Assembly (NCBI GenBank): GCA_903919125.1
Contig: CAIXGS010000027.1
Coordinates: 62,001 to 126,000 of the forward strand
Direction: 5' to 3'
Source of the DNA: an uncultured Spartobacteria bacterium
Lineage (GTDB): Bacteria; Verrucomicrobiota; Verrucomicrobiia; Chthoniobacterales; Chthoniobacteraceae
DNA: 64,000 bases
The notes under the pieces are model-generated. The model made no database searches. It was not told the DNA's origin and saw only the letters and a program-made list of their open reading frames with translations. Positions 6,556 through 64,000 of the stretch are shown piece after piece; position 1 is the first letter of the stretch; each line of letters opens with the position of its first letter. Both the position numbers and the translations under genes were made by a program.

Positions 6556-6987
6556 ATGTCTGAGTCTCTGCAAAGTTTGATAAACACAGCCGTTTCCCAT
6601 GCGAAAGAACAGGCGTATGAAGCTTGTGCTGAAGCATTTGGTGAAATATTTTCAACTCACCCAGGGCACCCAGAGGCGATGCGCGCCCTAGCCTCAATCA
6701 TGCTGGACATGGGACAAACCGAGAATGCGTTATCTCTACTGGCAGACGCCGTGGATAAAGAACATCCCGACCCCGAGTCTCTACATCAGTTAAGCGTTCT
6801 TTTAAAAGGGAAAAACCGGCTCGAAGAAGCTGCGGATTTGCTGATATGCGCCGTTTCAAGTGCCCCCGACCGGCAAGATTGGATCACAGAGTTAAGGTCA
6901 CTATTAAGTCAGTTGGGGCGGAATGAGGATTTTCAGACTTACTTCCCAGACTTTCCCCAAAGCGCGCCTCCAGAAGTCACAGCGTGA
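6556..6987 (+). CDS. Small TPR protein
   Basis: A 143-residue protein made of three to four tetratricopeptide-like helical hairpins. Typical repeat positions are seen in HPGHPEAMRALASIMLDMGQTENALSLL and the following HPDPESLHQLSVLLKGKNRLEEAADLL. There is no signal peptide and no catalytic domain, so it is probably a cytoplasmic adaptor. It is divergent from flagellin 1 and upstream of the glycosyltransferase-like genes. TPRs bind flagellin in the FlmG system of Caulobacter, so a flagellin chaperone or glycosylation adaptor role is a reasonable inference, not shown. The start is the first ATG; the sigma-54-like element ends 11 bp before it. Confidence 0.7.
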   Translation: MSESLQSLINTAVSHAKEQAYEACAEAFGEIFSTHPGHPEAMRALASIMLDMGQTENALSLLADAVDKEHPDPESLHQLSVLLKGKNRLEEAADLLICAVSSAPDRQDWITELRSLLSQLGRNEDFQTYFPDFPQSAPPEVTA

Positions 6988-7332
6988 CGTACGGTGTCGC
7001 TTTATTTTAACTTTCGTAGGGCTCTGCGCGTAAGAAAGGCCAAGCGTTTTTTTTCAGTTAGAGGCCGTCACGATTTTTGGGGTAATTGTAGCGGGTCATC
7101 GCTGTAAAAGATGGTTTTGAGGCGTCGTTTTAAGGCGCAGACGGATGAAAGGCACCCATGTCTCATGGGGCTTTCTGGGCGGCTGCCCAAAATAGAGCTG
7201 GGACTGCTGAGGCATTTCCGAACACATCCATTGGGTTCCACACAACACTTCGGATGAAACTCCTCACACTGAACCCAAAATTAGGACTTTGTTCACAAAG
7301 TTACTGGACGTATTGAGACCCTAATATTCTGT
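6988..7332 (+). other. Intergenic stretch without a gene
   Basis: These 345 bp hold no convincing ORF. A T8 run at about 7047-7055 follows a weak possible hairpin. AT-rich sequence TAATAT just before 7333 could be part of a promoter for the next operon, but no clear -35 partner was seen. Confidence 0.4.
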
Positions 7333-8349
7333 ATGAGAAGCGTGCTCGAAATTTGGGAAGCGATCCAGGCTGGGGAAATTAGCGCCCCGCAGAAGGCCTC
7401 CGACTTCGTAGAACTCGCTCGGAAACTGATGCGGGCCGGCCATTCTTCGGCGGCTGCCCACGCTTTTTCCAAGGCATTCGAAATGGATCCGGGCTGTCCA
7501 GAGGCTTGCTTCGGGCTGGCAAGCCTTTTGGTGATGGCAGGGAAGGGAGAAGCCGCAGTGGAGCTTCGAACTTTGGGCTTAGATCTAAGCCGTGCCAGAT
7601 ACCCGTTGGACACATGTCTCTCGAGCGAGGCAGGAGCCAGTCCGCGCAACATATGGGTGGCGACGGGCAAAGCAGCTGATTCCCCAAATTTTGCGGCTCA
7701 AATTAGCGCGCAACTGGCAGCGGATGTTCCGGGAAACTGGACTCTGGATCATCTTAACTCTCCAAATATTCAACCAAAGGCTTGGAACGAAGTGCTGGAA
7801 CGTTGTGCCGACGCCGGTGCGGAATGGGTCGTGTTCGGAGCGGCGAATTTGGAGGTGCAACTTGGGGGGGTGCTTCCCTCACTGCAAGAGGCCAGACGCG
7901 AGTATGGCGCGGATATTGTGGGGGTGGCCGGCGGTTCGCACTTGGCGGTGGCCTCGCCCACGACCTGGGGCAGCATGTGTCTACGCTCCTCGCTTCTGGG
8001 ACAGGTGGCGTTTCGATCACTTTCTGGAGAGGTCGTGCCGAACGTGTTTGGGCCAACAACCGGTTTGGTGGACGTGTTGGACGACGTTCTACTGGCGGTT
8101 CACGTGCCCTCAGCGGTGGCAGCGGGTTGGCGGTTTAACGAGTCTTTTCCCTCCTACCACTGTGTAATGGCAAGCTGCCTTGATGCGCGTTTTCTTGGGC
8201 TGCGTTTAGCTGTCGCGCCCTTGAATATTATTCAGAACACGGAGCCCGAAGTTGAGCCGGTGCAGGAGCATTGGCAGACCAGTGAGGACCGTTTTTTGAG
8301 CCGCTACGGCACGCCACAGCCGGAAACTGAGGGCCACCCTACAACATGA
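7333..8349 (+). CDS. TPR plus glycosyltransferase-like protein
   Basis: A 338-residue protein. Residues 1-80 form a short TPR region (LARKLMRAGHSSAAAHAFSKAFEMDPGCPEA). Residues about 100-320 resemble the StrF/Glyco_tranf_2_5 type of GT-A-like domain, with IVGVAGGSHL, then DVLDDVLLAVHVPSA and a final FNESFPSYHCVMASCLDARFLG segment that mirrors the F-(T)GFH-Y-D element of that family. A strict DXD is not obvious, so catalytic activity is uncertain. It overlaps the next gene by 4 bp (ATGA), implying coupled expression. The context between flagellins suggests a role in flagellin glycosylation. Confidence 0.6.
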   Translation: MRSVLEIWEAIQAGEISAPQKASDFVELARKLMRAGHSSAAAHAFSKAFEMDPGCPEACFGLASLLVMAGKGEAAVELRTLGLDLSRARYPLDTCLSSEAGASPRNIWVATGKAADSPNFAAQISAQLAADVPGNWTLDHLNSPNIQPKAWNEVLERCADAGAEWVVFGAANLEVQLGGVLPSLQEARREYGADIVGVAGGSHLAVASPTTWGSMCLRSSLLGQVAFRSLSGEVVPNVFGPTTGLVDVLDDVLLAVHVPSAVAAGWRFNESFPSYHCVMASCLDARFLGLRLAVAPLNIIQNTEPEVEPVQEHWQTSEDRFLSRYGTPQPETEGHPTT

Positions 8350-9203
8350 AAACTCGACGTATTGGCGTGGTCGCGCCTTCTTTCACGCATCGGTCTGCCG
8401 GGATTTTCATGATGCACTATTTGGTCCATCAGCTCCGGGAATTGGGTTTTGATGCCTACTGGATTCCGCAGAATGCGCCGCTGACCGTTCATCCACATTT
8501 TGACACACCTCACGTCCAAATGAGTGGTTGTAGCGGCCCTGAAATTGCAGAGGATTGGATCATCATTTATCCCGAGGGTGTTTTCGGGAACCCATTGAAC
8601 GCAAAGCGTGTGGTGAGGTATCTCTTGAATAGGGAAAGTGCCTTTGGCGGACCCGGCATGGGCGCTGCGCCGGGAGATTATCTCCTGACTTATTCCCGCT
8701 GGTTTCATCCGACGGCGCCGGTTCTGTATTATCCTGTTTTTGAGGGCGAACTTTTAATCCGCTCCGCCCGCCTTACGGGTTCTGAACCACGCACACTCGA
8801 CGCGTATTATATTGGGAAAGGAGCGGCCCTCGGGCATTGCCCGCCTTTGGCTCGAGCGGTGGAAATCACCAGGTCATGGCCCGAGAATAAGTCCAAGCTG
8901 TACGATCTTTTGGAAAACATCCGCATTTTCTACTCCTACGACTGGCTCAGTTCCACCTTGGCGGACGCCGCTCTTATGGGATGCGAAGTGCGACTGATCG
9001 GCAACCCGGGCGCCATTGGGGTGGAGCAGTTGTTAAACTCCCCAGGCATGCCGGACCTGTGGGAGCGCGCCTCGGAGCACTCCGTTTTCATGCGACCTAG
9101 CTCACGCCCGAAATTCTTGGAGACGATCCGCAGCTATCGTGCCGAGTTTATGCCGAGCTTGCTGGAAACGCTCAAGGACATCACGCGGCACTTCGATCGC
9201 TGA
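8346..9203 (+). CDS. GT-B-like glycosyltransferase-related protein
   Basis: A 285-residue protein of uncertain family. The N-terminus has a Rossmann-like strand-loop-helix (RRIGVVAPSFTHRSAGIFMMHYLVHQLRELG) as in GT-B enzymes that search for a sugar donor. The C-terminal half contains IFYSYDWLSSTLADAALMGCEVRLIG, resembling the nucleotide-sugar-binding region in which an acidic residue and a helix precede a Gly-rich turn. It is translationally coupled to the preceding TPR/GT-like gene and convergent with the giant TPR-GT41 gene, 30 bp away. It could add or modify a sugar on flagellin or on its donor. The substrate cannot be read from sequence. Confidence 0.5.
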   Translation: MKTRRIGVVAPSFTHRSAGIFMMHYLVHQLRELGFDAYWIPQNAPLTVHPHFDTPHVQMSGCSGPEIAEDWIIIYPEGVFGNPLNAKRVVRYLLNRESAFGGPGMGAAPGDYLLTYSRWFHPTAPVLYYPVFEGELLIRSARLTGSEPRTLDAYYIGKGAALGHCPPLARAVEITRSWPENKSKLYDLLENIRIFYSYDWLSSTLADAALMGCEVRLIGNPGAIGVEQLLNSPGMPDLWERASEHSVFMRPSSRPKFLETIRSYRAEFMPSLLETLKDITRHFDR

Positions 9204-45669: not shown

Positions 45670-45774
45670 GGAAGAAATCATACCGCTCTGATCTGGCGCT
45701 GTGCACGCAAGAAGCTTTGGAAGTTAGCCTTGTTCTGCGCTTTTCGTCGACCGCATTTCGCAGTTTACTACGGC

Positions 45775-46521
45775 ATGGGCTTTCGCATCGATCCTCACGT
45801 GCACTCGTTTTACTCGGGAGACGGCGTGAGCAGTCCTGAGGCGTTGATTCAGGCGGCTAAACAGGCGGGTTTAGACGGGTTTGCGTTGACAGATCACAAC
45901 ACATCGGATGGGTGCAGATATCTGCGCGACATCGGTTTGATCCGGGAAGACGGCGAGCCCGTTAACGGCTTCCTTGTCATGCCGGGAATCGAAGTGTCGA
46001 CCGCCGAGGGGCACCTTTTGTGCCTCGGAGTGTGGCTTCCCAACGGCTTGAAAGGAGTTCCCGCCAAGGAGGTGATCGAGATGGTGCGAGCGCAAAATGG
46101 CGTTTGTATCCCAGCACATCCTTATGACCGTATGCGTGCAGGGATCAGGGAAGATGATTTGGATGCGTTGGACATCACTTGTCTCGAGGTTTTTAACTCA
46201 GCCACCGTATTGAAGCGCCACAACGCCAGTGCTCTGGCGTACGCCCAAGGACGCGGTCTCGCGATGACCGCGGGCAGTGACGCGCACCACCATCTTTCCA
46301 TCGGCCGCTCGTACACCACTTTCCCAGCGGAGCGCCTCAGTGTAAGAGCCATTTTGGACTCGATCACGAAGGGGACGGAACTACACTGCCAGCCTTTCAG
46401 CACGCTGGAAGGGTTTCGCAAGACGTTCTACAACTGGTTCAGGCTGCGTCGCAAACGGAATTATTTAGGAGCCGGCGTTGGAGGTGTTGAGGGCGTCGAG
46501 GGTATCGCCGCTGGCGGCTGA
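45775..46521 (+). CDS. PHP domain metal-dependent phosphoesterase
   Basis: A 248-residue PHP protein. Metal-binding residues are His8 and His10 in DPHVHSFYSGDG, followed by LTDHNT, GIEVSTAEGHLLCLGV, IPAHPYD and GSDAHHH. Such proteins hydrolyse phosphodiesters or nucleotides. The ATG at 45775 (MGFRIDPHVHS) fits the family; the frame is open to 45730. The Gly/Val-rich tail overlaps the 3' end of dltB by 61 bp on the opposite strand, so both C-termini share the same low-complexity DNA. Confidence 0.85.
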   Translation: MGFRIDPHVHSFYSGDGVSSPEALIQAAKQAGLDGFALTDHNTSDGCRYLRDIGLIREDGEPVNGFLVMPGIEVSTAEGHLLCLGVWLPNGLKGVPAKEVIEMVRAQNGVCIPAHPYDRMRAGIREDDLDALDITCLEVFNSATVLKRHNASALAYAQGRGLAMTAGSDAHHHLSIGRSYTTFPAERLSVRAILDSITKGTELHCQPFSTLEGFRKTFYNWFRLRRKRNYLGAGVGGVEGVEGIAAGG

Positions 46522-48056
46522 TCCAAAGCGGCTTCCCGAGCTTTGCGCAACTTCTCTTCCTCCCGCTGAATTTCTTCCTCATTTCGCTCGCATTCCACGG
46601 TTTGAGGCGAGCCTTTCAAAGGCAGGTTGTTCTTCACATCCTTGACTTCGATGACGTGTGGACGCCCGTCGCGGACCCACCAGGGAATCTCAAAGCGGAA
46701 CCCGTGTTTGCCGTCTCCAAAGCCACGCTCTTTCAAGTCCTCGCGTTCAATATTTGCGGGGATACGTAGGATGAACTGATCGTCGATGTACAGATCAACT
46801 TGCAGCACTTCTGGTTGTGCGGCCGGTTCCCAGAGCATACCGGTGACTTCCCGAGTGTCGGCTTTTTCCAAAACCCGCTCGACGGCGAGAGGAGCTGCCG
46901 GAGTGAGGCGGCCGGAGAAAAGAAGCAAGCCGAAGGCGATAGCGTGGAAGGTAAGCAATCGGTTGGCGAAAATCTGGAGCGCACTTTCTCCGAGAAATTT
47001 CCGCTGCTTGTTCCAGCGCGCGAACCAGTCATAACCGCTCAGGAGTGCGGCGTGGTAGAGGCCGTAGAGCATGTAATGCAGAGTGAGGCCGTGCCAGACG
47101 CCCATGATACCGAAGGTCAGAAAGAGGCCGCAATAAGAGGCGGTATGCTTCCCGCTGAACCATTTACGTTTTGAGGCGGTCAACAAAAACCGCATGTAAA
47201 TATGGTCTCGAAACCAGAATGAGAGCGAAATATGCCAGCGATTCCAAAAATCCCGGATGTTCTTGGATAAAAATGGGCGATCGAAGTTTTCTGGGAGATG
47301 GACTCCAAAGAAACGGCCTAAGGCGACCGCGAAAGCGCTGTACCCGGCGAAGTCGAAGAAGAGGTAGAGTGTGTAGGCGTACATGTACATCCACAGCGTC
47401 GTAAAGCCGCGCCCCTTGCCCAGGGCCTCCATCCAGTAGGTGTTGATGAGGGCGGCTATGATAAACTTGTACAAGAAACCGCGAGCCAGCCTTCTGGCAA
47501 CGAAGTCGAGGTCATCGAGAAACTCCGCCCGGGAACGAGTTTTTTCCCAGTCCTTAATGAAGCGGCGGTAGCGATCTATAGGACCGGAAGAAAGAGCTGG
47601 GACGAACAGCAAATAGGCGACGTAATGCTGAAGAGACAGGTTTTTGACCAGACCGTCTTGAATAGAAAAAAGGACGTCGAGTGCTCGGAAGGTAACGTAA
47701 GAAATGCCGAGGAAACCAAAAGCGGTATGGGGGGAGAAAGTCGGAAGGAGCTTGGCCGCAGCAAGCGGTAAGATCGAAAGGCTAAGCGTAGCGTAGAAAA
47801 CAGCGCGGGAGCGGAACTGAAGTAGCCAGTGAGCGAGGAGGGCTTGAAATGCCGTATAAACGCCGATGATATACAGCTCGCGCACTTCAAAATCGGGGCG
47901 TAAATGCACCGGAGCGCTGGTTTGAAGTACCAGGAGGATGGACATCGCCAACAAGCTCGTAGTCCCGTTGAGCCGACCGAAAAACGCGAGCACTCCAAAG
48001 GGAAGCAGGATGTACAGCAGCAAGCCGAAGTACTCAAAGTCAGAGAAGGGAACCAT
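46461..48056 (-). CDS. dltB: DltB-like MBOAT acyltransferase with C-terminal beta domain
   Basis: A 531-residue membrane protein. Residues 1-405 are a DltB-type MBOAT with about ten TM helices. GPIDRYRRF (158-166), FFDFAGYSAFAVALGRFFGV, NFDRPFLSKNIRDFWNRWH with His275, and GVWHGLT with catalytic His322 are all present; the His-His spacing (47) equals that of Gram-positive DltB. Residues about 407-490 form an extra beta-rich domain (VDLYIDDQFILRIPAN, GKHGFRFEIPWWVRDGRPH) of a kind seen in some glycosyltransferases, then a charged coiled-coil and Pro-rich tail. DltB moves D-alanine from DltC to the outside. Last gene of the dltDCXAB operon. Confidence 0.9.
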   Translation of the reverse strand: MVPFSDFEYFGLLLYILLPFGVLAFFGRLNGTTSLLAMSILLVLQTSAPVHLRPDFEVRELYIIGVYTAFQALLAHWLLQFRSRAVFYATLSLSILPLAAAKLLPTFSPHTAFGFLGISYVTFRALDVLFSIQDGLVKNLSLQHYVAYLLFVPALSSGPIDRYRRFIKDWEKTRSRAEFLDDLDFVARRLARGFLYKFIIAALINTYWMEALGKGRGFTTLWMYMYAYTLYLFFDFAGYSAFAVALGRFFGVHLPENFDRPFLSKNIRDFWNRWHISLSFWFRDHIYMRFLLTASKRKWFSGKHTASYCGLFLTFGIMGVWHGLTLHYMLYGLYHAALLSGYDWFARWNKQRKFLGESALQIFANRLLTFHAIAFGLLLFSGRLTPAAPLAVERVLEKADTREVTGMLWEPAAQPEVLQVDLYIDDQFILRIPANIEREDLKERGFGDGKHGFRFEIPWWVRDGRPHVIEVKDVKNNLPLKGSPQTVECERNEEEIQREEEKLRKAREAALDQPPAAIPSTPSTPPTPAPK

Positions 48057-48074
48057 TGGGGGAAAAAGAACGTA

Positions 48075-49550
48075 TCAGGAGAGCATTGCGGCTAGCGCCC
48101 GGCGGTCTGCCTTACCGTTGGGTGTCATGGGGAAGGCTCCGAGAAACAGGAATTTGCGAGGGACCATATAGGTCGGAATGCGTTCGCCCAGCCGAGCTTT
48201 AAGGCGCGCACTTTTCTCAAAATCAGAGCCGTCCATCGGAGCGGAAAGGACGACGAAGGCGGCGAGGGAATCCACTTTGCCCCCTTTTTCCACAGGGAGC
48301 ACGACGGCATCTGCTACCTCGGAGAGTTCGCGCAAGTTAGCCTCCATGTCGCCCAATTCGATCCGATAGCCGTGCAGCTTGATTTGTCCGTCCATACGGC
48401 CTTCGAAGAAAACCAGTCCATCGCGACAGCGGCCCCAGTCCCCAGTGCGGTAAGCGGGTTGGCCTTCGAATTGGGTGAAGGCTTTCGCCGTCAAATCGGG
48501 CCGGTTGAGGTAACCGGGGCTGACGTTGGGGCCTGCTATGAGCAACTCGCCGCGCTCGGAATCGGCGACGGGAACTCCGGCGTCGTCCACGGCGAGAACT
48601 CGGGTGCCGGGCATCTGGTAGCCGACAGGCAACGGCGAGAAGCGCTCGAGCAGGGCGACATCGACGCGCACGGAAGTGGTGGCCACCGTGGCCTCCGTCG
48701 GGCCGTACGTGTTCCAGACTTCGGCAGAGGGAAAGCGTTCGAGCAGTTGGGAGGCCGTTTCCGGGGCGAGAGTTTCCCCGCAAAAAAGAAAGCGCCGCAT
48801 TGTGGGGAGCATTTCCTGACGGAAGCTTTTTTCGATCAAGCACATCTGTGCAAAAGACGGGGTCGACACCCAAGTCGTCAGTCCGAACTGCGTGAGCCTT
48901 TGATATAGCAGCTTGAGGTTGGCTAGCTCCTCCTTAGTGACGCAAGCAAGCGTTCCGCCGGTGAGTAGGCTCCCGTATAAATCCATGACGGAGAGGTCGA
49001 AGGAAAACGGGGCCTGATTGAGAAACACCTCCACCTGAGGCTCAAACTTGTGTTCTGCCAAGAGCCAGTCCGTGAAGGCCGTCAGGTTGCGCAGCGTAAT
49101 GACCACGCCTTTGGGCTCCCCAGTGCTCCCCGAGGTGAAGAGCATATAGAAAGGATCGTCCATTTGCACCCTAGATGGCGGGGCGGGCAAGGCGTCCGCA
49201 GAGTGCATCAGAATTTCGCTCACTCTTTCCGGTGTAAGAACCAGAGCAGCGCCAGAGCCGGCGACAATTTTGGCGATGCGGTGCTCGGGAATGGAGGTGT
49301 CCATTGGGACGTACGCGCGGCCGCACTTTACGGAGGCGAGGAACGCAACGAGCATTTCAGGCTCTTTATGGCCGTGGACAGCGATAGGGCCGGGAGTGGA
49401 AGCTAGTTCGTGATGCAGCCAAGCCGCTAAGGCGTTTGATTTTTGAATTAAACTGCTCCAAGTCAGCGTATTGGAGCCGCTTTGTACTGCTATGCGCCCA
49501 GGGCAAACGCTGCCCCAATGGTCAATCCGGTCCAAAAAATGTTCACTCAT
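48075..49550 (-). CDS. dltA: DltA-like D-alanine-[D-alanyl carrier protein] ligase
   Basis: A 491-residue adenylation enzyme that activates D-alanine and loads it on DltC. Motifs are the P-loop TSGSTGEPKG (139-148), PFSFDLSVMDLYGSLLTGGTL typical of DltA, NTYGPTEATVA and YRTGD, and the catalytic Lys480 in MTPNGKADRR. Cys257 in FLFCGETL is the residue that lets Bacillus DltA select D- over L-alanine. It lies 18 bp before dltB and 140 bp after dltX. Confidence 0.9.
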   Translation of the reverse strand: MSEHFLDRIDHWGSVCPGRIAVQSGSNTLTWSSLIQKSNALAAWLHHELASTPGPIAVHGHKEPEMLVAFLASVKCGRAYVPMDTSIPEHRIAKIVAGSGAALVLTPERVSEILMHSADALPAPPSRVQMDDPFYMLFTSGSTGEPKGVVITLRNLTAFTDWLLAEHKFEPQVEVFLNQAPFSFDLSVMDLYGSLLTGGTLACVTKEELANLKLLYQRLTQFGLTTWVSTPSFAQMCLIEKSFRQEMLPTMRRFLFCGETLAPETASQLLERFPSAEVWNTYGPTEATVATTSVRVDVALLERFSPLPVGYQMPGTRVLAVDDAGVPVADSERGELLIAGPNVSPGYLNRPDLTAKAFTQFEGQPAYRTGDWGRCRDGLVFFEGRMDGQIKLHGYRIELGDMEANLRELSEVADAVVLPVEKGGKVDSLAAFVVLSAPMDGSDFEKSARLKARLGERIPTYMVPRKFLFLGAFPMTPNGKADRRALAAMLS

Positions 49551-49690
49551 AGGGGTGGTAATGCGGTTTGAAAGCTACCGGTTTTTATGCAGATCGACTG
49601 GGTAGAATCGCTTTCTTTTGGGAAGCCCTCTGTGGAACCCAATGAGATGCGCCAACGACCATCTTACCCGAGGAGAGCGACGGCCGTCGC

Positions 49691-49837
49691 CTAAAACTCC
49701 TGATAAACGAAGGGTGGCGTTGAGAAGTCACCTCGGCCGTAAAGGAATATCAGGGCGAAAACCAAGGCGACATAATAGAGAAAGAGCGCCAGTCGTTTGA
49801 GTTCCGGACGCCCCTCAAAAATAGCATCAAAATCCAT
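49691..49837 (-). CDS. dltX: DltX-like microprotein
   Basis: A 48-residue ORF too short for routine gene calling. A basic-flanked segment (ELKRLALFLYYV) opens a single TM helix of about 20 residues (LALFLYYVALVFALIFLYG), followed by a short periplasmic tail ending in PFVYQEF. Gram-positive DltX has the same plan: LYY in the helix, LYG at its end and a C-terminal F-(I/V)-Y-x-EF. It is placed 13 bp after dltC and before dltA, where DltX belongs. In Gram-positive systems DltX binds DltB and takes part in D-alanyl transfer. Confidence 0.85.
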   Translation of the reverse strand: MDFDAIFEGRPELKRLALFLYYVALVFALIFLYGRGDFSTPPFVYQEF

Positions 49838-49850
49838 CTGATTGAGTCAG

Positions 49851-50090
49851 TTAAGATGCCATTCGCCGCTCTAAGTCGGCGACTAACAGGGCGGGCGTGG
49901 CCCATGCTTCGCGCTCAAACTCTGCGGGAGAGATTTCCACATCGAATTCGCGTCCGAAGGCTACGATGAGTTCCACCGTCTTCATGGAGTCGAGAATTTG
50001 CAGTTCGTACAATGCCAAATCCGGTTGGCTGAGTACCTCTTGAGTTTCGGCCACTTCTGCAAGCACCTGAAGTATTTTATCCTTCGTCAT
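49851..50090 (-). CDS. dltC: D-alanyl carrier protein
   Basis: A 79-residue acyl carrier protein. The phosphopantetheine site is Ser35 in QILDSMKTVELIVAFGREF, with the Asp-Ser-Met typical of DltC. The helix after it and the acidic surface match. It sits 21 bp after dltD and 13 bp before dltX on the same strand. Confidence 0.9.
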   Translation of the reverse strand: MTKDKILQVLAEVAETQEVLSQPDLALYELQILDSMKTVELIVAFGREFDVEISPAEFEREAWATPALLVADLERRMAS

Positions 50091-50111
50091 AAGCTATTCG
50101 GGTCTAGGAAT

Positions 50112-51464
50112 TTATTTAGGGAGGGCGCTTTTCCCGAGCTTATCGTGGTAAAAGTCATCCAGCACTCTGTTGTAATACCACCACCCTTTAGAGCCGATGT
50201 GGTCGTTTTGATCTACGAAAAATACAGGATCGCTCTCGTGATCCTTAAAATAAACTAGGGGAACCCCATAGCGGCGAACCATCTCCTGCAAGCGCTCACC
50301 GTAGGCCAAACGCCCCGTCTCCGAGACGCCCTGAGCTTCGAGTACATCGGCATGCAACGGCATCGACATGACCAGAGGCTTAGCGCCCGCTTCCTTGAGC
50401 AACCTCAGAACCAGCTCGAAATCCTTCCACTCTTGGGCCTTGCGCATCTTTACCGCAAACTGCTTATCCCACGTCCCCTTGGCACGCACGACTTTGATCG
50501 GCCGTTTGCGGGACTTTGCCGCCAGCGCCTTCGACTGCTGTTCGGCTGAGAGAAAGAGGTCGTCCCACCGCAGAACCTTGCCACGCGTTGGCCGGAACCG
50601 ACCAGCGCTGGGGGGAACAGTGCCCTCGGTGGCGACCATCCCCTTGAGTGCCAAACCGGCTTCGATGTGATCCTGCAAACGCCCGACCATTCGATCCAAG
50701 GTCGCGTAGGGTTGGATAATCGCGAGGAGGCACCGGTCTACCGAAGACCCCCCAGCCCAACGGCGCAGGGTGAAGTTCAAAGTCCAATCGCCCTCGATGA
50801 CTTTCGGGTACTTCAAAATCGCCACTGCGACGTCCCGTTTGAGCTCGGCGCTGAAGCGGTCGCTCCAAAAAAACTCTTTAATCTGTAGCTTGGAAGAGTT
50901 GCCTTCGAAATACTTAGCGTCGACCTCGTCAGTTTGGAAAAAACTAGGCGAGAGAGAGAGCACCAATTTTTTACCCTCCAATTGCTCGGCGGCACCACCG
51001 AGTTTTTGGAGAACAGAAAGTGCCGTGGTGCCCGCCTTACCAACGGGAAACATCGTAAAACCAGTGGGCGAGTCGGAGAAAAAGTCGACGCCCTTCATGG
51101 GCACATCGGGAATGAGTTCCGAACTGCCAAAGAAAACCAAGGTGTCGGGCCTTGAAAGCGCCTCCCGGATAAGGGCCACGCCGTGAAGCTTTGCATCGCA
51201 AAATTCAGGCGCAGCGGTGTGCAGACGCCGCTCCTGAATATCGCGAGCCCAGAAGTAACCCCCTGTAATCAGGCTGCCTGCGACAAGAACCGCAGCGCAA
51301 AGGGAAATCAGATGCGAGTGGCCGCGGGGAGGTTGTGCGACCAACGGCGCCCCAGAGGAGGTTGACACAATTGACACAAAATTCGTAGTTGCCACCTTTG
51401 TAACTGCCACCTTTTCTGGGGCAGCAGGGGGCGCATCCAAAGTACTTGTGGGTCCGGAGATCAT
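50112..51464 (-). CDS. dltD: DltD-like protein
   Basis: A 450-residue protein with a 50-residue Thr/Pro/Ala-rich cytosolic extension, a TM helix at about 51-72 (LISLCAAVLVAGSLITGGYFW) and an extracytoplasmic SGNH-like hydrolase domain. The catalytic Ser is in GSSEL (113-117), and the Asp/His pair in FVDQNDHIGSKGWWYYN near the C-terminus, as in Gram-positive DltD. DltD acts at the last step of D-alanyl transfer onto the polymer. First gene of the operon; divergent from uvrA with 220 bp between. The N-terminal extension is unusual. Confidence 0.87.
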   Translation of the reverse strand: MISGPTSTLDAPPAAPEKVAVTKVATTNFVSIVSTSSGAPLVAQPPRGHSHLISLCAAVLVAGSLITGGYFWARDIQERRLHTAAPEFCDAKLHGVALIREALSRPDTLVFFGSSELIPDVPMKGVDFFSDSPTGFTMFPVGKAGTTALSVLQKLGGAAEQLEGKKLVLSLSPSFFQTDEVDAKYFEGNSSKLQIKEFFWSDRFSAELKRDVAVAILKYPKVIEGDWTLNFTLRRWAGGSSVDRCLLAIIQPYATLDRMVGRLQDHIEAGLALKGMVATEGTVPPSAGRFRPTRGKVLRWDDLFLSAEQQSKALAAKSRKRPIKVVRAKGTWDKQFAVKMRKAQEWKDFELVLRLLKEAGAKPLVMSMPLHADVLEAQGVSETGRLAYGERLQEMVRRYGVPLVYFKDHESDPVFFVDQNDHIGSKGWWYYNRVLDDFYHDKLGKSALPK

Positions 51465-51684
51465 GTTCTGGGAAGGCTAAGGGGGGATTTAATAGTAACA
51501 CGCGCTGCGCAGTTCGCAAGGGTTTACAGTGGCTCGCGCCCTTATCAAAACAGACACGAGAGTCCGATTGAGACGGCATGCACTCGGCATGATTGCGCCT
51601 CAAAGCCGCCAAAAACCGCTTGTGCGCGCACGCTCGCTCCAAGCTTGCGCACTTGCCCAGTCTCGCCGAGCGTTCGCCCTGCCC

Positions 51685-54600
51685 ATGGCACACTCCTACC
51701 ACCCTCCCAGCGGCCCAGGCTTCATTGAAATCCGTGGGGCGCGCCAAAACAATTTAAAGGGCTTCGACGTTTCGCTACCCCTCGGCAAACTCATCGTCGT
51801 CTCAGGTCCAAGCGGCAGCGGAAAATCCAGCTTCGCTTTCGACACCCTCTACGCGGAAGGACAGCGCCGTTATGTCGAGACCTTCAGCCCGTACACCCGT
51901 CAGTTCTTTGACCGGATGGACAAACCCGCTGTCGACGAAATCCGAGGAATCCCCCCAGCGATCGCGATCCAACAGGTCAACGCCGTCAAATCCACCCGCT
52001 CCACAGTCGGAACCATCACAGACCTCAACGACTATCTCAAACTGCTGCTCCCCCGCGTCGTCGAGGCGTTCTGTCCGGGATGCAATCAAGCGGTACGCCC
52101 TTCAACCGCCGTTTCCATTGTGGATGGCCTGCTTGCGGCCGCAGAGCCTCTCCTGATCACCTTCCCGTTGGCCGTTCCACCGGACGCCGTTCCCAGCGAA
52201 TTCTTGGCTTTTCTTCAACAACAAGGCTACCAGCGAATCTGGGCCAAAGGCGCGGTGATGCGCACGGACGAGCCGGTTTCAAAACTTCCCCCGGAGGTTT
52301 TTGTCATCCAAGATCGCCTTACGCCCTCGCCCGAAAACAAACCGCGCCTCTCGGAAGCTGTGGAAATCGCGTTACGTTTCGGGAAGGGCAAAATAGCGAC
52401 AATCGCAGGAGAACGGATTCAACCCTTCGTCACGGGTTGGCATTGCGCCGCCTGTGAGCGTTCGCTCCCCGAACCGACTACGGGGCGTTTTTCGTTCAAC
52501 CATCCTCAGGGAGCCTGTGCAGCTTGTAAAGGCTTTGGGCGGATCATCACCATAGATCTGCTCCGCGCAGTACCTAATCCAGAGCTAAGTATCGAGGACG
52601 GCGTGGTTAAGCCGTTCCAAACCGAAGGCGGTGCCGATTGCCAGCGAGATTTACTCCGCCAAGCCGCAAAGCGCGGGATCAATTGCCGCAAACCGTTCTC
52701 CAAACTTTCCGTCGCTGACCAGCAGTGGATATTAAACGGGGAGGATCCTTCACGCTCAGGCGACTACCTGTGGAAGAAGGACTTGTGGTACGGCGTGCGC
52801 GGTTTTTTTGAATGGATGGAGGCCAAGAGTTACAAAATGCACGTGCGCGTGCTCTTGAGTCGTTATCGCACTTACACGGTGTGCCCAGACTGTCACGGAA
52901 ACCGATTCGCTCCGTACACCATGAACTTTCGCTGGGACGGCCTGACTGCGGCAGACTTGATGCGTTTGCCGATCAGCGAGTTCCACGCTTTTATTCGTGA
53001 GCGCCGGGAACGTCTTTCCAAAGATCCCACGGCGGACCTTCTCTCGGGCGAGGTTGAGTCCAGGCTGCAATACCTTCTGGACGTTGGACTAGGATACCTG
53101 ACGTTGGAACGCCCCACGCGCTCTCTCAGCGGCGGCGAAACTGCGCGCGTTAATCTCACGACCTGCTTGGGGACCGCTTTGGTGAACACGCTTTTTGTGT
53201 TGGACGAGCCAAGCATCGGCCTACATCCGCGGGATACAGGACGGCTTTTGCACGTAATTAAAAGACTTCGAGACAAGGGTAATACGTTGGTCGTGGTGGA
53301 ACACGAGGAAGCGGTTTTGCGCGCTGCGGACCATTTCATCGAAATCGGCCCAGGGCGCGGTGAAGCGGGCGGCCACCTTGTGTACGAGGGGCCGGCGGAG
53401 GGGCTCCTTTCTGGAGCGACGAGGACACTCACGGGGGATTATCTCACTGGAAAAAAGAGTGTTCCGGTACGCACCAAACGCCGAAAACCAAAGGGCTGGG
53501 TGAAGGTGGAAGGGGCAAGCGCCCACAATTTAAAGGAGGTCGACGCCGACTTTCCGTTGGGTGTACTTTGTTGTGTCACAGGGGTTTCTGGCTCTGGAAA
53601 AAGCACGCTCGTGCATAGCGTATTGTACGGCCAGCTTGCGAAGGCGCAGGGACTGGAGCTAGATGAGCCACCGGGCGAGTGCCGGGCGCTCCACGGTGCG
53701 CAAAAGGCGGGGCCGGTAGTGCTCGTCGATCAGACGCCTCTGTCCAAAACGCCGCGTTCCACTCCCGCGTTGTATCTCGGGATTTTCGACGAAATCCGCG
53801 CGAAGTTTGCAAAGACGCCGGAGGCTAAGGAGGCGGGGTTCACCGCAGGTAGTTTTTCGTTTAATTCTGGTAAAGGCCGTTGCGAACGCTGTGGGGGAAG
53901 CGGCTATGAGAAGATTGAGATGCAGTTTTTGAGTGATGTTTATGTGCGTTGTCCGGAGTGCGAGGGGAAGCGTTACCAGCCGCAAGTAAGACAGATTTTG
54001 GTGGAGGGAAAATCGATCGATGAGGTGTTGGACCTCACTATCTCAGAGGCGATTGAATTTCTAAAAACGGCGAATATACCGTCCGCAATCAAGCCGCTTG
54101 AAACACTCGAAGAACTGGGGCTCGGATACTTGCGGCTGGGTCAGCCTCTCAATGGGCTTTCCGGCGGCGAGGCCCAACGCATCAAGCTAGCCGAGCGGCT
54201 TATTCAACGCTCGAAAACTGGGGCGTTTCTCATCTTGGACGAGCCCACCACAGGCCTGCATTTAGACGATATCGTCTTGCTGGTCGCAGCACTGCACAAG
54301 CTCGTCGACGATGGTCACACGGTTCTCGTCATCGAGCACAACCCAGACGTGATCCGCGGTGCTGATTACATCATTGACCTCGGGCCAGAAGCTGGTGCCG
54401 AGGGCGGCCACATTCTGGTGGCAGGCACTCCGGAAGACGTTGCGGCCTGCGCGGAGTCTCACACCGGCCGCTTTTTAAAGGCAGACGGCGGTTTTCAAGA
54501 GGAACTGCGCGTCGCAGAAACTACTGATGTTTATCCTATTGCGGAGGCACCCGAGGGCATCCACATCGTCGGAGCGAGGCAGCACAATCTGAAAAATTTG

Positions 54601-57192
54601 ACGCTCACCATTCCGAGAAACTCCATCGCGGTCATCACTGGTTTGAGCGGTTCGGGTAAATCTTCTCTGGCCTTCGATCTACTTTTCGCAGAGGGCCAGC
54701 GCCGCTTTCTGGACAGCATGTCGCCGTATGCGCGGCAGTTTGCCACGCAACTGGAGCGCCCGGACGTGGATCGAATCACGGGCCTGCCGCCCTCCGTCGC
54801 CATCGAGCAGCGTCTCACTCGGGGCGGTGGCAAGTCGACCGTGGCGACCGTCACGGAGATTTATCATTTCCTGCGGCTCCTCTTCGCAAAACTCGGCGTC
54901 CAGCATTGTCCGGATTGCGAATTGCCAGTGGAACGGCAGACGCTCAGCTCCGCGGTGACGAAGGCAGAGACCCTCGCGAAAAAGGGCGTGGTCTCCATTC
55001 TTGCGCCTCTCATTCGCGCTCGAAAAGGCTATCACAGCGAGATTGCGACGTGGGCGCTGCGTCGCGGCTATGAGGACTTGTTAGTGGATGAGAAGTGGGT
55101 GAAGGCGAGTGCGTTTCCAAAGCTGGCTCGTTTCAAGGAACACACCATTGAGGTGCTCGTTGGGAAGAGCGCACCGGGCGGGAAGACTCGTCAACTTATT
55201 GAGACTGCGCTGGAAGTGGGAAAGGGAACCGCCGTTCTACTGGACGCCAAATTAAAGCGCCACGTACTCAGCACGCAGTTCAGTTGCACGGGTTGCGGCA
55301 CCTCTTTTGAGGAGCCTGATCCGCGTCAGTTTTCTTTTAACAGTCCGCACGGCTGGTGCGACACGTGCCACGGCTTCGGCGAGGAATGGGTGCGCAAGGA
55401 TAACCCGAGGCTGGATTCCGCGCTGGAAATTGAACTGGATCACGAGCGCCAGCACGAGGCACTGGAGGACGAAGAACGCGCCGTTTGTTCCGTCTGCGAA
55501 GGGGCGCGTATTCGGCGTGAGTCGCGGTTCGTTTTCGTTGGATTGCAGACGTTACCTGCGATTGTCGCGCTTTCCGCAGCGGGCATTTTAGCGTGGCTGG
55601 AAGGCTTAAACTTTTCAGGAAACCACGCTCGGATCGCGGAAGATATTTTACCGGAAATCACTCAACGACTTCAGTTTTTGAGCGAGGTTGGTCTGGATTA
55701 CCTCACGTTAAACCGATCGGCGAAAACCTTATCCGGCGGCGAGTCTCAACGCATCCGGCTCGCGGCACAATTGGGCTCAAACCTGCGCGGCGTCCTTTAC
55801 GTTTTGGACGAACCCACCATCGGATTGCATCCCCGCGACAACGCTGCTCTTTTGGACACGCTGACGGCGCTCAAGGCCAAGGGGAATTCGCTCGTTATCG
55901 TCGAACATGACGAAGACACACTGCTGCGCGCAGATCACGTGATTGATCTCGGGCCGGGCGCAGGCCGACACGGAGGACAAATTATGGCGCAGGGAACGCT
56001 GGCGCAATTGCGGGCCGCACCTCTTTCTGCGACCGGAGAATCCCTCCGCAATCCGCTGCAACATCCGATGCTGGGGCAACGCCGATCGCTTGCGAAGGGC
56101 GAGTTGACGGGGTGGTTGGAGGTACGCGGAGCCCACTTGAATAACGTGAGGGATATGGATGTGCGCATTCCTCTCGGGCGACTCACGGTGCTGACGGGGA
56201 TTTCTGGTTCGGGCAAAAGTACTTTCATGCGAGGGATCCTCAAGCCCGTTCTGGAAGCAGCGATTGAGGGCAGAAAGCCGCGCCACGTCGGCACCGGTGT
56301 GATCGAAAAATTGTGTCGAAGTTTCCTCGGGGCCGAAGGGGTAGAAGCAGTGTATGAAGTCGACCAATCGCCCATTGGCAAGACCTCGCGTTCCACGCCG
56401 GCCACGTATCTAAGCATCTTTGACGCGATTCGCTCACTTTTTGCAGGCACTCCTCTGGCGCGAATTCGAGGGTATTCTAGTGGTCGTTTTTCGTTCAATA
56501 CGGAGGGCGGTCGATGTGAGACTTGCCTCGGACAAGGGACGTTGAAAATTGAGATGAACTTCCTCCCCACCGCTCATATCCAATGTCCGGATTGTGGCGG
56601 GCGCCGTTACAATCCAGCGACGTTGGAGGTGCCTTACGCAGGAAAGACCATCGCCGATGTGCTTGCCCTGCCCATGGAAGATGCGGCTGAATTTTTTGCG
56701 TCTCACCCGTCCATCGCGAGACCTCTCAAGTTACTGTGTGAGACAGGGTTGGGTTACCTGACCTTGGGGCAGTCCAGCCAAACTTTGAGCGGTGGAGAAG
56801 CGCAGCGACTTAAGCTCGTGAGCGAATTGGTACGCGGTGTGAGTCGAAGTGAAAACGCACGGTTACGGAGTTCAAAGGTCGCTCCCTCGATGGTCTACTT
56901 ATTGGAGGAGCCGACCATTGGATTGCACCAAGCCGACGTGCGGCAGCTGCTAGGGCTGTTGCACCGAATGGTGGATGCGGGACACACCGTGGTGGTGATC
57001 GAGCATCACACCTCAGTCATTGCGGAAGCGGATTTCCTTTTGGAAATCGGTCCCGAAGCGGGTGCGGCTGGAGGTGAACTCATCGCCTGCGGCACTCCAG
57101 AGGAAGTGGCAAAGGTCAAAGGCAGTAGGATTGCGCCGTTTCTAAAACCGCTTTTGAAACGACGTACACGGCCTGCGAAGGTCTCGGACTGA
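51685..57192 (+). CDS. uvrA: Double-length UvrA (two fused UvrA units)
   Basis: A fused excinuclease subunit A of 1835 residues, about twice the usual ~940. Four Walker A sites (GPSGSGKSS about 41, GVSGSGKST about 633, GLSGSGKSS about 986, GISGSGKST about 1505) and four LSGGE signatures ([36 protein letters not shown]) show two complete UvrA repeats. Zinc motifs include CPGC, CAAC, CERCGG and CPDC/CDTC. UvrA normally works as a homodimer on DNA damage; fusion makes an obligate tandem. Such double-length UvrA is known in Chlamydia, so it supports PVC affiliation. The ATG at 51685 (MAHSYHPP) is chosen because the upstream residues from 51529 look like noise. Confidence 0.95.
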
Positions 57193-58410: not shown

Positions 58411-60012
58411 TCATTCCTGTGGCACAACAAGATCCAACGGCGCAACCTCGAAGTCATCTACGCTAAAGCCTTTAAGCGTTGCATTGCCAGAACGATGTCT
58501 TTCATAAAATCCACGATGCGTGTCGTTGGCAAAAGGATACGCATCAAACTCAGCGCCTCGCCCCAAAATCCGCGGGTCCTCTTGCATTCGAAGCTCCGTC
58601 TCCAATTGGCCGCTCAGAGCTGACTTCACCCCGGCCAACTCCGTCTTAGCAGCCAAATTGATGACGCAATCAGGGTCCGAAGCGAGATCGTAAAGCTCTT
58701 CCTCACCCCGTTTCCCAAACGAAAGCGCCCAAAAGGGATCTGCCACATTCTTCCTATGTGCATGCAAAAGCGCTGACTTGGTCGGACTTGAATCGCAGTC
58801 CAGATAGCCCGCCTCCGGATTCCCACCGGGCCAACGACTTGGCTCAAAGTTGTGCGAATATAAAACTCCAGCTTTCAAAATACTTCGGATGGGGTATCCT
58901 ACGTCATTGGGTCGCCCCACATCGTTGCGTTCCCTGCCCAAGAGAACGTGGTCGCGAGCGGCATCGATCATCCCAGACTTTTCGGAGCGTAAAAGTGGCA
59001 GGAAACTTCGCCCAGTCGCGGGCGCCATGCCGCTGTTAGCCCAAGGAACGCCTGCGGCCTCGAGCAATGTCGGCGCCAAGTCGATAACACTCACATAATC
59101 GTCCACAACGCGTCCCGGGAAAGGGATGCCTTTTGGCCAGCGAACGGCCAACGGAAGGTGATTGGCGATTTCATAATTCTGCCCCTTGCTACGTGGAAAC
59201 GGCATACCATTGTCTGCCATCACGATCACAATGGTGTTCTCAAGCTGTCCCTTGGCCTCCAAAGACTCGAGCATCTGGGCCAAGTGTTTATCAAAGTACT
59301 CGACCTCGAATCCGTAATCTAGCATGTCATTTCGAACCGTTTCGCTGTCAGGCCAATACGCGGGAACACGGGTCACCTCAGCGAGCTGCCTTCCCCCTTT
59401 ACTCACGCCGGAACCGTATTCGTAAGGACGATGGGGTTCGACACTCCCATACCAAAAACACCACGGTTTGCTGTCCGTATTCGCTGCCAGAAAGTCCTCA
59501 AAGTTTGCCGAGTAATTATTCTTACTAATCTCCGCGGTAGGCGTCCCAGTAGTCCTTTTGTTGAATGGGACGCCGGCCATCTGCCGCTGCTTGCCATTGA
59601 CATCTTTCGCCTCACCGGGGCCCCATCCTTTCATCGTCATGCCCACCCAGTATCCCAGGGCTTGAAGCACTTCAGGATACGTCTGGAATTCTGCGGGAAA
59701 AGTGGGCCAATGATTCGCCGCCGCACCGAGCTGCCAAGGGTTGCGCCCCGTCATGATGGCTGAACGTGAGGGCGAGCACTTCGCGCTGGGGGTGTAGAAC
59801 CGGTTGAAGAGTACGCCTTCTCTGGCCACCCGATCGAAGCCGGGGGTTTTGATCCAACTACAACCGTACGCGCCCGCGTGCCCGAAAGACCAGTCGTCGG
59901 CGATGGCAATGAGGATGTTAGGACGCGCCGGATTTTTGTCGTTTGAATCCGCTTGAGAGGAAAGCGTTGTGATTAAACAAAAAGCGAGAGCGAGACAGTG
60001 GGGGAAGCGCAT
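58411..60012 (-). CDS. Secreted sulfatase
   Basis: A 533-residue type I sulfatase. A signal peptide covers 1-20 ([17 protein letters not shown]). The metal-binding Asp pair is in [13 protein letters not shown]. The formylglycine site is Cys79 in [11 protein letters not shown], the exact C-x-P-x-R consensus, so an anaerobic or FGE-type maturation enzyme is needed elsewhere. Further active-site residues lie in [10 protein letters not shown] and [10 protein letters not shown]. It should remove sulfate from a polysaccharide or glycan outside the cytoplasm. The ATG at 60012 is chosen for the signal peptide; the frame is open to 60093. Confidence 0.93.
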
Positions 60013-60123
60013 CGTAAGCTTCGCAGCAGGTTTCCTGCCAGCGCGTTGAACCCTTGGAAAGGCCAGCAAGAAACTTTGCGTGGATTTTCGCAATCAGGTT
60101 TGTGCAAGCGCTGTTCCCGCGCG

Positions 60124-63235: not shown

Positions 63236-64000
63236 TTACAGTCTCCTTAGAAACAAACTCGAAAAATCGCGGTTGGCGGAGCGCATCCAAAACAGACAAA
63301 AACCGATACAAAAGAATAAAACATGAGGGCCCCAAGCAGCGACTTCTGGAGCAATGCGTCCAGCTTTGCCAAGGGCGAGGAAAAGACTGCGCAGGACAAG
63401 CAAAAGAAAGAACAGGAAAATGGCAATTCCAGCGCCCTGAACTGTGCCGCGCCGTGAGAATACAATTCCAAGCGGTGCAGCAATTAAGATTACAATAAGA
63501 CAAGACCAAGGCAACGCCCAACGGTCTTGAAGGACGGTGCGAAATGGAGCCAGTTGCGGTTTAGAAAAATCGTAGTTGTTCGTCAAATACTCGTTCAACT
63601 CGGGCGTGGTAAGTTGGTTCGGATCAAGTCGCGAAGAAGCAATGCGCCATGGTGTTTCAAGCCACCCTTCCAAGGTGCGTTGTCCTTGTGCTTCAAAATT
63701 GTCGATCTTGAGGACTTCACCTTCCGCATTGAGATCCACAATGACACCGCGCTGGAGCGTCCAACGGTGCGTTGCTGGATCATGTATCGCTTTCGCAGCG
63801 TACCATTTACGGGTGATGTTTCCCAACTCGTCTTGTTGTAGAATCTGGACGCCTTCAAGCACGGAACCACTCGGGCGGAGGCGTCGCACAAACCAAGTCC
63901 GATTACTAAGCCGATCCCGAAACAAATGCGCGTCGACTTGGTCACGAGGCGCATCATTGGAGCGGGCCTGACGCAGACCATCGATTACGGCGCGCTTAAA
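63236..64000 (-). CDS. LptF/LptG-type LPS export permease, C-terminal part
   Basis: The frame is open to the window's right edge, so the N-terminus is missing. The visible ~254 residues include the beta-jellyroll region (GVIVDLNAEGEVLKIDNFEAQ), a TELNEYL-like segment, and a membrane domain with three TM helices (CLIVILIAAPLGIVFSRRG, IAIFLFFLLLVLRSLFLALG, LFFCIGFCLFWM). AAPLGI with a following arginine pair is the YjgP/YjgQ family signature. It works with LptB to extract LPS from the inner membrane, so the organism should have LPS. Confidence 0.85.
   Translation of the reverse strand, partial: FKRAVIDGLRQARSNDAPRDQVDAHLFRDRLSNRTWFVRRLRPSGSVLEGVQILQQDELGNITRKWYAAKAIHDPATHRWTLQRGVIVDLNAEGEVLKIDNFEAQGQRTLEGWLETPWRIASSRLDPNQLTTPELNEYLTNNYDFSKPQLAPFRTVLQDRWALPWSCLIVILIAAPLGIVFSRRGTVQGAGIAIFLFFLLLVLRSLFLALGKAGRIAPEVAAWGPHVLFFCIGFCLFWMRSANRDFSSLFLRRL

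Follow-up and report, generated by a model that had tools for sequence, protein, structure and literature searches.

The DNA analysed here is a 64,000-nucleotide stretch (the window) of contig CAIXGS010000027.1 from an uncultured Spartobacteria bacterium. It contains a five-gene operon, dltD-dltC-dltX-dltA-dltB, on the minus strand, transcribed from 51464 to 46461 with all frames open. The host is diderm, and the operon probably gives it functional Dlt machinery that esterifies an envelope polymer other than teichoic acid with D-alanine. The genome to which the window belongs (G000, hereafter the window genome) is a 4.34-Mb assembly in 87 contigs, approximately 95% complete. For comparison we sampled 388 genomes across the phylum, 197 of the order and 12 of the genus. 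The genes of the operon, and one additional domain in DltB, are the following.

50112-51464, minus strand: dltD, SGNH-type D-alanyl transferase of 450 residues, predicted periplasmic, with GSSE at 113-116, Asp418 and His422
49851-50090, minus strand: dltC, D-alanyl carrier protein of 79 residues, with Ser35 in an LDS motif (LDSM)
49691-49837, minus strand: dltX, 48 residues with a single hydrophobic stretch and the C-terminal sequence FVYQEF, including Tyr45
48075-49550, minus strand: dltA, D-alanine-DltC ligase of 491 residues, with Cys257 and Lys480
46461-48056, minus strand: dltB, MBOAT membrane D-alanyl transferase of 531 residues, with His275 and His322
46581-46895, minus strand: C-terminal domain of DltB (residues 388-492), a predicted immunoglobulin-like beta-sandwich on the periplasmic side

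A preliminary description of the window had reported all five Dlt genes together at 46461-51464, and the family matches bear this out, with DltA, DltB, DltC and DltD above curated cut-offs and DltX recognised by motif and conservation. DltB scores 408.7 bits against TIGR04091 (cut-off 375), and its residues 3-384 match PDB entries 8jem and 6bug (5.7e-66). DltA reaches 550 bits against PRK04813 (cut-off 476) and matches the Bacillus cereus protein (PDB 3dhv) at 1.5e-142; with the stricter TIGR01734 it scores 544 bits, under the cut-off of 559.85. Both models for DltC are exceeded (PRK05087, 77.5 bits, cut-off 68; TIGR01688, 70.3 bits, cut-off 52.35), as are those for DltD (PF04914, 150.4 bits, cut-off 22.7; TIGR04092, 152.4 bits, cut-off 150). 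DltX falls 0.2 bits below the PF12459 cut-off of 25 (24.8 bits, E-value 1.5e-5). Because its C-terminus fits the acyl-shuttle motif FXYXXF and the protein is kept in genus-mates, as well as in order-mates, we do not consider it a chance open reading frame.

The key residues of the pathway are present in DltA (Cys257 and Lys480), DltC (Ser35), DltX (Tyr45) and DltB (His275 and His322). The two DltB histidines are separated by 47 positions, as are His289 and His336 of Streptococcus thermophilus DltB, which agrees with the Gram-positive spacing claimed earlier; each of the 76 relatives that allowed a measurement has the identical spacing. The pocket residues that bind D-alanine have been named for B. 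cereus DltA (PMC8972799). Since the motifs that hold them (FSFDLSVMD, FLFCGE and NTYGPTEATVA) are identical in the window protein, D-alanine is the likely substrate judging from sequence, and the role in D-alanine selection previously given to Cys257 is likely as well. DltD retains the GSSE motif and His422. Its C-terminal motif reads F-F-V-D418-Q-N-D-H422-I-G, compared with the Firmicute consensus F-x-x-D-x-x-H-[LI]-G: the aspartate is still three residues past the conserved phenylalanine, and one residue is inserted ahead of the histidine, placing the aspartate at -4 rather than -3. The Firmicute D-x-x-H spacing is thus replaced by D-x3-H, which is common to most verrucomicrobial DltDs, several from Chloroflexota and one from an Eisenbacteria metagenome-assembled genome (MAG). 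The earlier statement that the catalytic residues are intact therefore stands for DltA Cys257, DltC Ser35 and the DltB histidine pair, and not for the DltD spacing. DltD may nevertheless remain active with the extra residue.

In the established Dlt route the alanyl group passes from DltA to DltC, DltB, the DltX tyrosine, the DltD serine and finally the acceptor (PMC12148441), and each carrier and catalyst of this route is encoded in the window. DltA would adenylate D-alanine in the cytoplasm and load it onto the phosphopantetheine of DltC, whereupon DltB would carry it across the inner membrane and hand it to DltX at Tyr45. DltX would pass it to the DltD serine in the periplasm, and DltD would esterify a hydroxyl-bearing envelope glycan or glycolipid, not teichoic acid. 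The positive charge added by D-alanine would probably make the envelope less negative and shield the cell against cationic compounds. The substrate, the enzyme activities, the acceptor and this benefit are inferred; for the charge control and peptide resistance that the preliminary description had proposed, we rely on what is reported of dltB in Dickeya and of the dra locus in Bordetella.

Two further genes that bear on the nature of the acceptor lie in the window outside the dlt operon.

63236-64000, minus strand: LptF/LptG-family lipopolysaccharide (LPS) export permease, cut by the end of the window
58411-60093, minus strand: arylsulfatase with a C-S-P-S-R motif; PF00884 has 39 matches in the window genome, this one included

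The permease had been taken as a sign of LPS, which we corroborate: it matches PF03739 with 129 bits (cut-off 27.9, E-value 2.9e-37), and LpxC is encoded elsewhere in the genome (1.2e-93), as it is in 181 of the 197 order-mates. Because LpxC and LptF/LptG are present, the host is an LPS producer. A search for the TagB/F family of teichoic polymerases (PF04464) gave no match in the window genome, while the same search was positive in Bacillus subtilis and Lactococcus lactis. The sulfatase fold of PF00884 includes LtaS-type synthases. Every readable PF00884 protein of the genome has the C-x-P-x-R arylsulfatase motif, at most two hydrophobic stretches and no LtaS multi-helix N-terminus, so neither LtaS-like nor OpgB-like enzymes were found among them. 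Given the missing PF04464 match and the arylsulfatase type of the readable PF00884 proteins, we think it unlikely that a known teichoic acid receives the D-alanine, in line with the non-teichoic acceptor proposed in the preliminary description.

DltB differs from its Gram-positive counterparts in that it continues beyond residue 384 into a domain of approximately 105 residues, which those proteins lack. The window genome has one copy of the domain. Of 18 order-mates that we aligned, 14 have it too; no full version was detected outside Verrucomicrobiota. An AlphaFold2 model (predicted local distance difference test score, pLDDT, 90.5) shows a sandwich resembling immunoglobulin (Ig) and fibronectin type III (FnIII) domains. 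It matches no Pfam family, and its structural matches are to generic Ig/FnIII domains (best Z 7.9, all below 8); we therefore did not assign a function from them. As both DltB termini are predicted to lie outside the membrane (PMC3783018), the modelled domain should be periplasmic. Its most plausible role is to dock DltD or the acceptor, though this is the weakest step of our interpretation. The only other match in a 241-genome sample of the phylum is fused to an apparent radical SAM protein; the domain is N-terminal to such a protein at L145 1501-2790 (plus strand), from a more distant relative, and because of this fusion we regard it as a mobile domain that Pfam has not named.

The operon is kept throughout most of the host's genus and in much of the family. 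DltD was found in 50 of the 197 order genomes and in 11 of the 12 from the genus, the exception being only 62% complete; across the phylum it was matched in two of the 388 sampled genomes, one of them weakly. By DltB, the closest relatives are Chthoniobacteraceae and other Chthoniobacterales, and the complete operon is present in the cultured Chthoniobacter flavus Ellin428 (L069) and in many MAGs. In the DltB tree the verrucomicrobial proteins lie on one side of a branch with support 91/95. A larger group of Verrucomicrobiota, Chloroflexota, Planctomycetota and Eisenbacteria sequences, together with three Bacillota MAGs, is split from the main Bacillota group with support 100/99. The rarity of dlt across the phylum might be taken to indicate contamination, or a recently acquired and non-functional operon. 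We consider this highly improbable. The distribution in genus and order and the grouping of the verrucomicrobial DltBs make contamination unlikely and let the operon look old in the order; all frames are open, and the 142-kb contig carries a double-length UvrA, with a similar long open reading frame beside dltD in a genus-mate. Two loci (L070 and L090, both 6959-8539, plus strand) encode DltB in its complete form, extra domain included, and no other dlt gene. Together with genome G397, where dltD-dltC-dltX and dltB are on separate contigs, they suggest that the operon is split in that genus.

Several relatives encode more than one DltD. One DltA and one DltB above the cut-offs are accompanied by two DltDs in G469, by three in G453, G459 and C. 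flavus (G513), and by four in G401. It is conceivable, at tentative strength, that one DltA-DltC-DltX-DltB module supplies several DltDs with different targets, as most additional or lone DltDs keep the GSSE serine and the histidine. However, the window genome has a single DltD, the additional copies could be redundant or inactive, and no polymer or polysaccharide genes were found near those lone DltDs that were examined. More speculative still, and rather doubtful at present, is a modular D-alanylation system in the diderm Chthoniobacterales, in which a single such module, with the new periplasmic docking domain of DltB, would feed several DltDs that decorate different non-teichoic envelope glycans. 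In Udaeobacter-like genomes a tandem dltD pair is located directly upstream of dltC (L056 9457-11975; L057 143-2689), and several dltD copies in these genomes lack the catalytic aspartate position.

The acceptor could specifically be LPS, which would then be modified in its core or O-antigen before Lpt export, while still at the periplasmic side of the inner membrane. LpxC and LptF/LptG are present, and in soft-rot enterobacteria the target has been proposed to be LPS (PMC5541007). However, in the relatives examined dlt is not linked to any LPS gene, and the D-alanylated component of Bordetella is protease-susceptible, going by a title cited in PMC4448142. LPS genes are also far commoner in the order than dlt (LpxC in 181 and DltD in 50 of 197 genomes), and LPS alone does not predict dlt. 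For this reason we view LPS as a possible acceptor, not favoured over other glycans and on balance somewhat unlikely. It is improbable that the pathway transfers something other than D-alanine, be it another amino acid or an acyl group. The DltA score under the TIGR01734 cut-off would allow such a substrate, and in methicillin-resistant Staphylococcus aureus the dlt pathway is reported to incorporate D-serine into teichoic acid (PMC12071552); against this, the named D-alanine pocket motifs, cysteine included, are those of B. cereus DltA, and the protein lies 74 bits above the PRK04813 subfamily cut-off.

Several observations weigh against D-alanylation of a non-teichoic polymer as we propose it. 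The Asp-His spacing of DltD is altered, and the aspartate is absent altogether in some Udaeobacter-like order-mates, therefore the transfer chemistry could differ. One PF00884 fragment (G000:C42, 80 residues) is too short to include an N-terminus, in a genome that is about 95% complete. No gene for acceptor biosynthesis is linked to the dlt operon in the relatives examined, and the open-licence literature yielded no biochemical results for the Dlt proteins of Verrucomicrobiota. We had considered whether the surrounding genes point to the acceptor and discarded the idea, as no polymer locus emerged among them: the flanking genes vary among relatives, and those identified are housekeeping genes (2-oxoglutarate dehydrogenase, biotin carboxylase, a DegP-like protease, HrpB helicase and GH15).

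Compared with the dltXABCD operons of B. subtilis, B. cereus, S. aureus and S. thermophilus, the window encodes the same five proteins, with the same DltA cysteine and pocket, DltB histidine spacing and FXYXXF tail of DltX. In contrast to these Gram-positive systems, the gene order is D-C-X-A-B instead of X-A-B-C-D, DltB has the additional predicted periplasmic domain, the DltD Asp-His spacing is one residue longer, and the host makes LPS and has no teichoic polymerases that we could find in its genome. The preliminary description implied that dlt genes in an LPS-bearing bacterium are a surprise, which they are not: they were published before for Dickeya dadantii, Pectobacterium and Photorhabdus (PMC3544676), and for Bordetella pertussis, where the dra locus adds D-alanine to an outer-membrane component (Taneja 2013, as cited in PMC4448142). 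A D. dadantii dltB mutant is sensitive to polymyxin, which was ascribed to 'alanylation of an unknown substrate' (PMC3544676). By their descriptions, the systems of Dickeya, Pectobacterium and Photorhabdus resemble that of the window in having an LPS-bearing host and an unidentified acceptor, and the Bordetella locus, as cited, in D-alanylation by a Gram-negative; Dickeya belongs to another phylum, however, and its dltD (pbpG) is listed apart from the dltBAC operon. Outside Verrucomicrobiota, the nearest DltBs are from dlt clusters of Chloroflexota, an Isosphaeraceae MAG and the Eisenbacteria MAG, several of whose DltDs share the D-x3-H spacing. Unlike in the window, several Chloroflexota clusters have the order C-D-X-A-B, and the full C-terminal domain of DltB was not detected in any of these three groups. 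Peptidoglycan O-acetylation by PatA/PatB likewise combines an MBOAT-SGNH pair with an acyl-tyrosine shuttle motif (PMC12148441), but uses acetyl-CoA as donor, has the motif fused to the MBOAT protein and lacks DltA, DltC and DltX.

Some features of the locus lie beside these questions. The gap of 140 bp between dltX and dltA (49551-49690) opens with the perfect palindrome GCGACGGCCGTCGC. The predicted folding of a hairpin in this gap is no better than that of shuffled sequences (z -0.64), and a scan for promoters and terminators found signals not above shuffled sequence. The 3' end of dltB is convergently overlapped, at 46461-46521, by a gene for a PHP-domain (CehA/McbA-like) metallohydrolase (45730-46521, plus strand), a relative of which adjoins dltB in several related genomes. 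On the other side lies a UvrA-like protein of 1887 residues (51529-57192, plus strand), apparently two fused UvrA copies; the similar open reading frame that adjoins dltD in the genus-mate (L028) has 1858 residues.

Literature searches, covering open-licence papers, yielded no report of Dlt in Verrucomicrobiota. The DltB domain, the DltD spacing and the genomes with multiple DltDs, which the preliminary description had missed together with the distribution in the order, make the system a variant of the family and not simply one more example of it. The work on Dickeya left open which molecule is decorated by the Dlt systems of Gram-negative bacteria. C. flavus Ellin428 is cultured and has a conserved, complete dltDCXAB operon, and the genome sampled from its group has no recognisable teichoic polymerases; this offers a clean place for finding the acceptor. 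Genomes with one DltB and up to four DltDs suggest that the choice of acceptor resides in DltD.

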